Shown here piece by piece: positions 3,281 to 56,993 of a DNA stretch of 62,244 bases (positions are counted from its first letter, which is position 1; each line of letters starts with the position of its first letter). A program made the translations under genes and the position numbers. The notes under the pieces were generated by a model. The model was not told the DNA's origin and searched no databases. It saw only the letters and a list, made by a program, of their open reading frames with translations. The stretch is from Candidatus Mediterraneibacter surreyensis (GTDB lineage: Bacteria; Bacillota; Clostridia; Lachnospirales; Lachnospiraceae): contig DWYB01000007.1 in assembly GCA_019118885.1 (NCBI GenBank), positions 1 to 62,244 of the forward strand, written 5' to 3'.

Positions 3281-3443
3281 AGTTTCTCCTCTGCCTTTCT
3301 TATAAAATTTTTCTGTAAAAATAAAAAGAAATCATGATTAATAACACCGTTGTCATTGCAGATCTAAACCTTGTTTTTATCTAACATGTTATTCTACATC
3401 GGTTCGTGACTCCTCACTCCATTAATCAGATTTCGCTTTTTCT

Positions 3444-3472
3444 ATCATATCACATTGTTAATAATTTGACAA
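3444..3472 (-). promoter_or_regulatory. ldh promoter with Rex-like operator
   Basis: On the minus strand a TTGTCA -35 (3467-3472) is separated by 17 bp from a TATGAT -10 (3444-3449). The sequence TTGTTAATAATTTGACAA (3455-3472) covers the -35 and most of the spacer. It matches the Rex consensus TTGTTAAnnnnTTAACAA at all but one base. Rex is the NADH-sensing repressor of fermentation genes in Firmicutes, so de-repression of ldh at high NADH is a reasonable inference. The leader from about 3437 to 3281 holds no gene that I can support. Confidence 0.75.
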
Positions 3473-3492
3473 CATGTGATTTTATTTTTTTA

Positions 3493-3644
3493 GTTCAGCC
3501 ATCTGATGTCAGGAGACGGATTTATGCTTACATAAGAATCCGGCGACTGACTATCAGATGTGTTGAGCGCCAGTTTATGAGCAAAGATGCGGCGTAGCCG
3601 CGATCAGCACGTCAGTGCGGCTTTGCAAATGGCGCGGGCTGAAC
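3493..3644 (+). repeat. Structured intergenic repeat R1, copy 1 (full length)
   Basis: This 152-bp element is bounded by GTTCAGCC and GGCTGAAC. Inside are two domains. The first is CATCTGAT...ATCAGATG enclosing CGGATT...AATCCG and a TTATG-CTTA-CATAA hairpin. The second is GCGCCA...TGGCGC enclosing GCAAAG...CTTTGC, with two short hairpins GCGGC/GCCGC and GCAC/GTGC. The same architecture recurs at 38055-38213 in reverse orientation, and in shortened form at 56924-56982. It lies between the terminator of the small coiled-coil gene and the ldh promoter. It looks like a mobile or RNA-forming palindromic unit rather than a gene. Confidence 0.8.
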
Positions 3645-3672
3645 AGCTGCAGTCCGGTATAATAAATGAAAA

Positions 3673-3694
3673 AGGAAGCCTTAATTGACTTCCT
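3673..3694 (-). terminator. Rho-independent terminator of the small coiled-coil gene
   Basis: On the minus strand AGGAAGTC and GGCTTCCT form an 8-bp stem around AATTAA, followed by TTTTT, 20 bases after the stop codon of the gene at 3714-3974. Confidence 0.75.
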
Positions 3695-3713
3695 CATATT
3701 TTATAATGAAATT

Positions 3714-37132: not shown

Positions 37133-37996
37133 TTAGCCCTCAAGATATGCCAACAGATCATCCATCCTGTGTTCCATATAACTGTATCCATGTTCATAGA
37201 AAGCTTCCAGCGACTCTTTGTTTCTCTCCAGCCTGGAGACCGGCTTCATCTGAGGTCTCAGAACGAAGATCTCACCGCTTTTTTCAAGCTGGTCGATATG
37301 ATTCATCATCTTATTGTACTCAAAGCTTCTCCGGAATATGGTACGGATCAGATTCGGATAAGACTTATATGCTCTCTTATAGACTCTCTGCAGCGCAGGA
37401 GAAATCACTTTCTTGCGATATCCCCGATTCTTTGTGAGAATTACGACTATCTTCTCATTTCCGATCTTCTGCGCATGTCTGACCGGAACAGAATCCGCCA
37501 GTCCGCCGTCCAGATACGGAATATCATCGACATTTACAATCGGCGTCAGAAGCGGCATGCTGCAGGACGCTCTGCATATCTTCATCAGCCTCTCCCTGTC
37601 ATGATCCTCCGTCATATATTCAGCTTTTCCTGTTATGCAGTTTGTCGTCACAATCTCACAGGTGATATCCGATCCAAAATACGTATCATAATCAAAGGGA
37701 ATCAGTTCATTCGGATATTTGTCAAAGATAAGATCCATATTCATGACACTCTTTTCTCTTACAAACTCCCTGAGCCCATAATAGTAATTTCCGTTCTTGT
37801 CCTCAGGTATCATACAGTTTCTTGTCCTCCGCGGCTGCTTCGACACATAGCCGACGGCATTGCATGCGCCTGCTGAAACTCCGATCACATGCGACATATA
37901 CAGATCCTGATCCATCAGATAATCAAGAGCCCCCGATGTAAAGACGCCCCGGGTGGCTCCTCCTTCCAGAACAAGTGTTGCCTTCTTTATCGCCAT
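37133..37996 (-). CDS. Patatin-like phospholipase
   Basis: This 287-residue protein has the oxyanion loop EGGATRGVF (near 10), the nucleophile Ser in GVSAGA near 40 and the catalytic Asp in DGGLADS near 163, i.e. the Ser-Asp dyad of patatin-like acyl hydrolases (YjjU/RssA group). It would hydrolyse phospholipids or acyl-CoA; the cellular role is unknown. The ATG at 37996 is preferred to the longer in-frame start at 38056, which would run into the R1 repeat; GAGAGG precedes it. Confidence 0.9.
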   Translation of the reverse strand: MAIKKATLVLEGGATRGVFTSGALDYLMDQDLYMSHVIGVSAGACNAVGYVSKQPRRTRNCMIPEDKNGNYYYGLREFVREKSVMNMDLIFDKYPNELIPFDYDTYFGSDITCEIVTTNCITGKAEYMTEDHDRERLMKICRASCSMPLLTPIVNVDDIPYLDGGLADSVPVRHAQKIGNEKIVVILTKNRGYRKKVISPALQRVYKRAYKSYPNLIRTIFRRSFEYNKMMNHIDQLEKSGEIFVLRPQMKPVSRLERNKESLEAFYEHGYSYMEHRMDDLLAYLEG

Positions 37997-38054
37997 GATG
38001 CTTAACCTCTCTTCTATAATAAATAATCTGTCTGTTTCGCTAACCTGTATTTTC

Positions 38055-38213
38055 ACAGTTCACCCGCGCCACTCGCAAAGACGCACTTACGTGCTTACCG
38101 CGGCTGTCGCCGCTTCTTTGCTCGTATTCTGGCGCTCACTCCGCCCATACAGAGCCGGGCTGCTCCTTATGCAAGCATAAAGCCTCCCGGCCCTGCATGG
38201 GCGGGTGAACTGT
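38055..38213 (-). repeat. Structured intergenic repeat R1, copy 2 (reverse orientation)
   Basis: This 159-bp copy is bounded by ACAGTTCACCCGC and its exact complement. Read on the minus strand it keeps TTTATGCTTGCATAAG, GAGCGCCAG, AGCAAAGA, GCGGC/GCCGC, GCAC/GTGC, CTTTGC and GTGGCGCGGG in the same order as copy 1. Several stems have changed on both sides: GTTCACCC/GGGTGAAC here against GTTCAGCC/GGCTGAAC, and CGCCCAT/ATGGGCG here against CATCTGAT/ATCAGATG. It fills the gap between the divergent patatin and ABC-F genes. The rest of the gap (38214-38345) holds the ABC-F promoter region only. Confidence 0.8.
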
Positions 38214-38345
38214 TACTCATACATTATATACCGTTTTCCCGGTTTCGGAAACCCCTTGCCTTTTTATGGGTATCCATGGTAATATATGCGGTGATGCGTA
38301 ATCAGTTTCAAAGATTCAGTTTTTAATGTTTAAGGAGATATCAGT

Positions 38346-56909: not shown

Positions 56910-56923
56910 CATTTTTGGGATAA

Positions 56924-56982
56924 CAGTTCAGCCATCTGCTGTCAGAAGACGGATTTATGCTTGCATGGCGCGGGCTGAACTG
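56924..56982 (+). repeat. Structured intergenic repeat R1, copy 3 (internally deleted)
   Basis: CAGTTCAGCC and GGCTGAACTG bound a 59-bp copy. It holds ATCTGCTGTCAG, AGACGGATTTATGCTTGCAT and then, directly, GGCGCGGGCTGAAC; the 3' half of the first domain and all of the second domain seen in copies 1 and 2 are missing. The end-stem is intact. It lies in the 3' untranslated region of the PatB/MalY gene. Confidence 0.75.
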
Positions 56983-56993
56983 CTTATATATTC

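Follow-up and report, generated by a model that had tools for sequence, protein, structure and literature searches.

Stable hairpins have often been noted in bacterial MITEs, without accompanying evidence of selection on the fold in the portion of the literature covered here. Published descriptions, to the same extent, give AT-richness as a typical or characteristic rather than an essential trait of these elements (PMC10969869, PMC3049150), and propose that the ends of BOX, an interspersed repeat of Streptococcus pneumoniae, are similar to those of a resident insertion sequence, ISSpn2 (PMC3049150). IS66 elements are reported with 8-bp target repeats (PMC11946415, PMC3281130, PMC12898284) and with ends that start in GTAAGCG (PMC11946415); for ISDge4, of the ISBst12 group, the ends are given as GTAACTGCTCAGCA and GTGACTACTCAGCA and the repeat as 8 bp (PMC12898284). 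The main text of the MITE review PMC10969869 contains no mention of IS66 or Lachnospiraceae, and the open-licence literature, within its limited coverage, yielded no description of an IS66-borne MITE with covariation or of R1, the repeat analysed here. R1 had been proposed by a first-pass annotation of the window, that is, the whole 62,244-nt stretch of Candidatus Mediterraneibacter surreyensis DNA under study, as a two-domain unit of ~155 bp located at 3493-3644 and, reversed, at 38055-38213, with closing stems that differ between the copies and nonetheless pair in both.

Both copies are indeed present, and the loop and junction words and stem arms quoted for them are found in the sequence of each. 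A covariance model built from 15 copies and 54 pairs placed the core of copy 1 at 3493..3644 on the plus strand (cmsearch 152.9 bits) and that of copy 2 at 38058..38210 on the minus strand (149.8 bits). Our analysis further uncovered intact termini (GTAACAG/CTGTTAC), target duplications and a remnant near 56920. Intact copies measure ~165 bp end to end, have no transposase gene and are bounded by 14-bp terminal inverted repeats, GTAACAGTTCAGCC...GGCTGAACTGTTAC. Alignment revealed decay at both termini of copy 1, which reads TTTTTA at 3487..3492 (+) where intact copies have GTAACA (TTTTCA at the same place in the relative G066), and AGCTGC at 3645..3650 (+) in place of TGTTAC. Copy 2 retains an intact left terminus, GTAACAG, on the minus strand (38210..38216), and its right terminus (38052..38058, minus strand) is decayed to CTGTGAA from CTGTTAC. 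By eye, these two copies with their decayed ends show no duplication. The third piece in the window, at 56920..56987 (+), is an internally deleted remnant that retains both terminal regions, its left end and 5' arm of P2 being fused to the 3' end of domain 2; it was detected by nhmmer (E 2.4e-6) and missed by cmsearch at E up to 5, whose matches in the window are the two full copies only.

A covariance-model search of related genomes, the check suggested by the first-pass annotation, recovered further copies. The own genome holds 33 matches, 22 of them over 100 bits, and blastn likewise returned 33. In a first genome set, 29 of 61 genomes (own included) were matched, all of them among the 37 of the window's genus; the 24 genomes representing other families of the order gave no match. 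Across a family-wide sample, matches occurred in 55 of 397 genomes and 48 of 334 genera; no more than seven candidates were scored per genome here, so that copy numbers represent minima and a lack of matches may reflect missed copies. Among named genomes, a pattern scan gave at least 117 stretches, the matches listed including Mediterraneibacter, Blautia faecipullorum, Dorea gallistercoris, Catenibacillus scindens and Choladousia. Rfam reported only a tRNA in a standard scan of the window, and six matches, all below gathering, in a permissive scan of 3440-3700. R1 found no match in plasmids, and the exact domain-2 pattern none in viral contigs. Three unannotated contigs of a phage collection match part of R1. 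Two of these, deposited as human-gut phages (L301, MT835743.1; L302, MT836949.1), carry whole R1-like units by eye; they may be phage, prophage or host.

The consensus fold comprises an outer stem, P1, formed by the terminal repeats; a long hairpin, P2, with the tip TTATGCTTGCATAA; and domain 2, in which GCGCC/GGCGC (P3) is followed by an AGCAAAG/CTTTGC helix surrounding the hairpins P4 and P5. The two-domain description is correct, with P1 as an additional element. In copy 1, P2 spans 3500..3560 (+), with the hypervariable stem CATCTGAT/ATCAGATG and a conserved tip, TTATGCTTACATAA, at 3522..3535 (+), whose two innermost pairs are almost invariant. Domain 2 occupies 3567..3635 (+), with P4 (GCGGC/GCCGC) at 3589..3601 (+) and P5 (GCAC/GTGC) at 3607..3618 (+). 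The corresponding minus-strand intervals in copy 2 are 38142..38203 for P2, whose stem reads CGCCCAT/ATGGGCG, and 38066..38135 for domain 2. Both copies fold more stably than their dinucleotide shuffles (z -5.3 for copy 1, -10.7 for copy 2), none of 200 shuffles of either being as stable as the native sequence; the reverse strand of copy 1 scores -5.6.

Double changes affect 27 of the 55 pairs predicted for the 15 own-genome copies and, in a model-fitted alignment of 78 distinct sequences, 49 of 54 pairs (alignment A3 was built from the window and 70 loci). The 78 rows contain 741 doubly changed cells, whereas column shuffles average 206; the share of cells that pair is 94.8%, falling to 76.1% after shuffling and to 30-42% with partners slid. 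In this alignment covariation extends to helices of 4-5 bp and to the long-range helices P1 and P3. Because the 78-row alignment leans toward the model, we also aligned 189 distinct sequences, drawn from 222 near-full ones among 299 matches, blind to structure with MAFFT, built a FastTree tree and replayed the same substitutions on it at random columns in 60 replicates, using an R-scape-like custom script rather than R-scape itself. Ten column pairs exceeded this null at E below 0.05; nine are pairs of the fold and the tenth lies one column off. Six of the nine fall in P2, two in the AGCAAAG helix and one in P4 (3590-3600), with none in P5; the other 45 of the 54 fold pairs did not reach significance in the 189 sequences at this threshold. 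The paired stem changes first seen between two copies thus hold in the 15 own copies and the 78 sequences, and for nine of 54 pairs the covariation goes beyond what phylogeny predicts. Many R1 copies are decaying repeats, and pseudogene-like repeats are described as hard to separate from functional RNAs in such alignments (PMC11234323, to the extent consulted). Selection on folding, as originally suspected, is supported both by this excess over the tree-based null and by the mismatch asymmetry described below.

The copy 2 site suggests how P2 may change. A copy is present there in 7 of 15 relatives; G064, G066, G074 and G019 carry two or three domain 2 units in tandem, G031, G024, G030 and G018 retain remnants, and no clear copy is seen in G012, G008, G023 and G026. 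Among seven of the eight orthologues with P2 (G076 omitted), the own genome (G000) and G066 are 92% identical in the upstream flank and 93% in domain 2 but only 47% in P2, and G074 and G064 are 95%, 90% and 48% identical in the same segments, whereas G000 and G064 share 84% of the flank, 91% of domain 2 and 94% of P2. P2 is therefore discordant with its surroundings and behaves as an exchanged block, most simply through recombination with other copies; the alternative is recombination of the locus between species.

We then asked which strand folds from the mismatches that P2 tolerates, given that a folded strand accommodates G.T better than A.C. The two arms were aligned with symmetric scoring in 143 of 147 distinct hairpins, or 79 of 83 representatives. 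Over whole arms, the 79 representatives hold 70 G.T and 28 A.C mismatches; without the 13 tip-adjacent positions the counts are 58 and 18, along with 114 mismatches of the transversion type, and all hairpins together then give 88 and 28. Composition alone would give a ratio of 1.15 to 1, and six partner-slid controls gave 0.67 to 1.5. The other helices show small or no excess (G.T:A.C of 9:3 in P1, 5:3 in P3, 5:6 in the AGCAAAG helix, 1:0 in P4 and 3:1 in P5). Plus strands are predicted to be the more stable in 178 of the 189 sequences, and in 131 of 189 after shuffle correction, with mean z of -6.6 as compared with -5.9 for the minus strand (custom dinucleotide shuffles). The G.T excess in the main stem favours a folded plus strand, and the strand asymmetry fits RNA; its source could alternatively be single-stranded DNA that folds, or mutation biased by strand. 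Together, these data support an R1 fold that is under selective constraint, as judged from sequence variation.

The strongest competing account holds that a DNA process, such as template switching, quasi-palindrome correction or exchange between copies, keeps the arms complementary, R1 being an ordinary MITE with long inverted repeats. P2 does have two long arms that have been exchanged as a block at one site, and paired change is also seen by eye at a site with several decaying copies. However, template correction should not prefer G.T, which prevails over A.C by 58 to 18, or 70 to 28 with the tip, and such a process would hardly explain covariation in 4-5 bp helices and in P1 and P3 (model-fitted alignment), nor the two AGCAAAG/CTTTGC pairs and the P4 pair that beat the tree null. 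We hence regard it as unlikely, and retain selection on the fold as the preferred explanation.

The genomic sites of R1 bear on whether its fold serves neighbouring genes. Copy 1 lies upstream of both its neighbours, a lactate/malate dehydrogenase-type gene on one side and, on the opposite side, oppositely directed genes including one for a P-type ATPase. A full copy occupies its site in only 2 of 12 relatives, G066 and, with an additional 3' piece, G019; the copy is partial in five others (G026, G036, G064, G074, G076), and the remaining five (G002, G008, G012, G024, G031) show no clear one. A patatin-like gene (37133-38056, minus strand; Pfam PF01734) follows copy 2, which begins ~6 nt past a TATAAT recognised by eye. 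To place these in a wider context, 164 copies with 1 kb on both sides were reduced to 100 independent sites, and genes were called with a custom ORF caller. Where both neighbours are co-directional, R1 is antisense at 40 sites and sense at 19 (p 0.009); the remaining sites are divergent (25), convergent (6), inside an ORF (9) or have no gene called on one side (1). Sense insertions into transcripts may have been weeded out, which would account for the antisense excess; this excess is at odds with a plus strand whose role lies within the mRNA of its neighbours.

A mobile cis-regulatory RNA, riboswitch- or leader-like and used by, for example, the patatin-like gene, would find some encouragement in the TATAAT just upstream of copy 2, in the copies kept at that site by seven relatives, and in some own-genome copies whose ends, by eye, lie only tens of bases from a probable start codon downstream. 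Against it, only 19 of the 100 sites are in sense tandem as compared with 40 antisense, copy 1 sits upstream of both neighbours and is partial or missing in 10 of 12 relatives, and the main stem varies almost freely. The variety of sites and orientations leads us to rank such a leader low, as a very improbable account of R1.

The first-pass annotation had offered, as alternatives, an RNA or a hairpin-dependent mobile unit. That R1 is mobile is borne out by copies that are identical yet lie at unrelated sites, by their exact ends and by target duplications of 8 bp. In G312, which has 15 end pairs at full-length spacing, seven copies are letter-identical from GTAACAG to CTGTTAC within unrelated flanks, and perfect flush repeats flank five of the seven, measuring 8 bp in four cases and 9 bp in the fifth. 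We next considered all 69 distinct copies with near-intact ends, for which each end was allowed one mismatch in the outermost seven bases and one in the six that follow. A flush perfect 8-bp duplication flanks 26 of them, with 0.04 expected from swapped flanks; a 9-bp repeat occurs in one, repeats of 5, 6, 7, 10 or 11 bp in none, and 43 of the 69 lack the perfect flush 8-bp repeat. The target repeats are 72% A+T in an earlier copy set in which some copies were counted on both strands. One own-genome copy, on contig C51 (L007), has AAGATTTT on either side, indicating that insertions in the window's lineage are not all old. R1 is short, gene-less and present in many dispersed copies with terminal inverted repeats and target-site duplications, as MITEs are; their AT-richness is absent, R1 being about half G+C (0.45 to 0.64 in 82 matches).

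Other forms of the element were also observed. Four head-to-tail units at ~160 bp spacing make up a whole-element tandem array at L253 1501-2133 (G093 C3 77382-78014). A minimal 43-bp form, two ends with a 17-bp centre, lies at L292 (G148 C4 40129-40171), and three further close end pairs in G148 resemble it. An 85-bp P2-only form at L293 (G312 C6 104413-104497) is flanked by the perfect 8-bp repeat AATTTATT, so that domain 2 is perhaps dispensable for movement, or was lost after insertion. In the own genome, R1 pieces begin 165-270 bp from the ends of contigs C27, C30, C34, C51 and C78, and the starts of four of these five contigs differ from each other.

To identify a possible source of transposase, 299 sequences were scanned for inward pairs of the R1 end. 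The pairs listed included three with no other end inside (L168, L171 and L132), which were considered individually, as were the G148 regions among the pairs with inner ends. At L168 149-1968, a 1.8-kb element adjoining an R1 copy is bounded by GTAACAGTTCAGCC and GTAACAGTTCACCC, shows an 8-bp duplication, CGAAAAAA, and encodes a single transposase ORF of 485 aa. This ORF belongs to the IS66 transposase family by Pfam (PF03050 at 6e-21, above cut-off), scoring 145.6 bits in NCBIfam, below the cut-off of 180, and was located beside an R1 copy in the CASDTX genome. The other two candidates were discarded: at L171 3760-5666 another transposase-like element, with a 438-aa ORF and the unrelated ends CCAATGTCATTTAG, interrupts an R1 copy close to the 3' end of that copy, and the ends of L132 resemble R1 pieces.

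A relative of the L168 transposase at 1e-60 was found in 1 of the 397 family genomes, G447, which has no R1 match. Its two IS66 homologues, 70-71% identical to the L168 transposase, align from residue 130 on, in open frames of 356-357 aa, and each adjoins the same 14-bp end, with no counterpart found on the other side. Thirteen contig ends of G312 fall within two sequences that open with the R1 terminus, and by eye one of the two is similar to the L168 end; the pattern is consistent with that expected of an unassembled multi-copy IS; no gene was seen in these sequences, and a search by end sequence gave only contig ends. The PF03050 profile had no match in the window's own 90-contig assembly; multi-copy IS are often missing from draft assemblies, although this does not amount to evidence for one here. 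In plasmids, tblastn with the L168 transposase returned only IS66 relatives of 28-30% identity, in 4 records. The R1 core has no convincing similarity to the interior of L168 (best blastn E 0.003 with 189 queries against this one element); it is a separate module and no recognisably shortened IS66. R1 ends start GTAACAG and, among the elements compared, only ISDge4 comes close.

Collectively, the sequence record reveals dispersed identical copies, exact ends, 8-bp duplications and an IS66 element with the same ends, and the identity of R1 as a gene-less IS66-type MITE is well supported. Movement in trans by an ISBst12-type IS66 transposase is the best reading of these features, and ordinary transposition in trans, rather than a hairpin-dependent mechanism, is what the 8-bp duplications and the ends in common with IS66 suggest. 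Transfer of R1 as single-stranded DNA by a Y1 transposase (IS200/IS605 or RAYT) that recognises hairpins, REP-like, is suggested by the strong hairpins with their conserved tip and by a mismatch asymmetry that could reflect a folded single DNA strand, but is extremely improbable given the perfect 8-bp target duplications of 26 of 69 copies and ends common to IS66 elements: Y1 mechanisms are not known to generate such duplications, and insertion without them, the defining feature of REP/RAYT repeats, is not what R1 displays.

We therefore favour, with good confidence, R1 as a MITE moved in trans by an ISBst12-type IS66 transposase and endowed with a selected plus-strand fold. A single-gene transposase of this type would act on the 14-bp terminal inverted repeats, and insertion of R1, mostly between genes and in AT-rich sequence, would duplicate 8 bp of the target. 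The plus strand would fold into the outer stem formed by the inverted repeats, P2 and the branched domain 2. Most likely, a self-folding transcript would disturb neighbouring transcripts less, allowing copies to persist, or the fold would aid the spread of R1. Copies decay in place, lose or multiply domain 2 and swap P2, most simply with other copies. A further extension, for which we see only a slim chance, is that the transcript acts in the life cycle of R1, for instance by using the conserved P2 tip and domain 2 to bind a protein, either the IS66-type transposase or one of the host; P2 would be an exchangeable hairpin cassette. If true, R1 would be an RNA-assisted MITE, and stem-swapping at orthologous sites a route of diversification.

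As a MITE, R1 is of a known kind; it stands out as a variant in combining a conserved, branched structure, for which the partner IS is no visible source, with a main stem that can be replaced. Present in 48 of the 334 family genera sampled, the element has no gene yet retains this specific fold despite turnover of the main stem, and a selected fold would be an unusual detail in a parasite of gut Lachnospiraceae without coding capacity. It makes testable whether a non-coding mobile element needs its own RNA. R1 is also a candidate for a new Rfam-type family and merits a family description, which would account for many intergenic repeats in common gut bacteria and flag gene-leader insertions in Mediterraneibacter and its relatives.

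Among described systems, and within the published text covered for each, the ISBst12 group, represented by ISDge4 (PMC12898284), is alike in its terminal repeats (GTAACTGCTCAGCA, as compared with GTAACAGTTCAGCC in R1), its 8-bp target duplication and the single transposase ORF that it shares with the putative partner, and differs in that R1 is gene-less, with a core that bears no convincing similarity to the partner interior. BOX (PMC3049150) is likewise short and interspersed, carries terminal repeats and target duplications, is built of modules, one of which varies in tandem number (domain 2 in R1, as at the copy 2 site in four relatives), and has a predicted RNA fold, a likeness in organisation only; the words 'covariation' and 'compensatory' are absent from the main text of PMC3049150, and R1, unlike BOX, is found across many genera. 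QMITE2 and other prokaryotic MITEs (PMC10969869) resemble R1 in their terminal inverted repeats, in direct repeats (7-9 bp in QMITE2), in the stable stem-loop transcript described for them and in a preference for AT-rich intergenic sites. R1 differs from them in being about half G+C, and in a core structure that is conserved across genera while the sequence of its main stem turns over.
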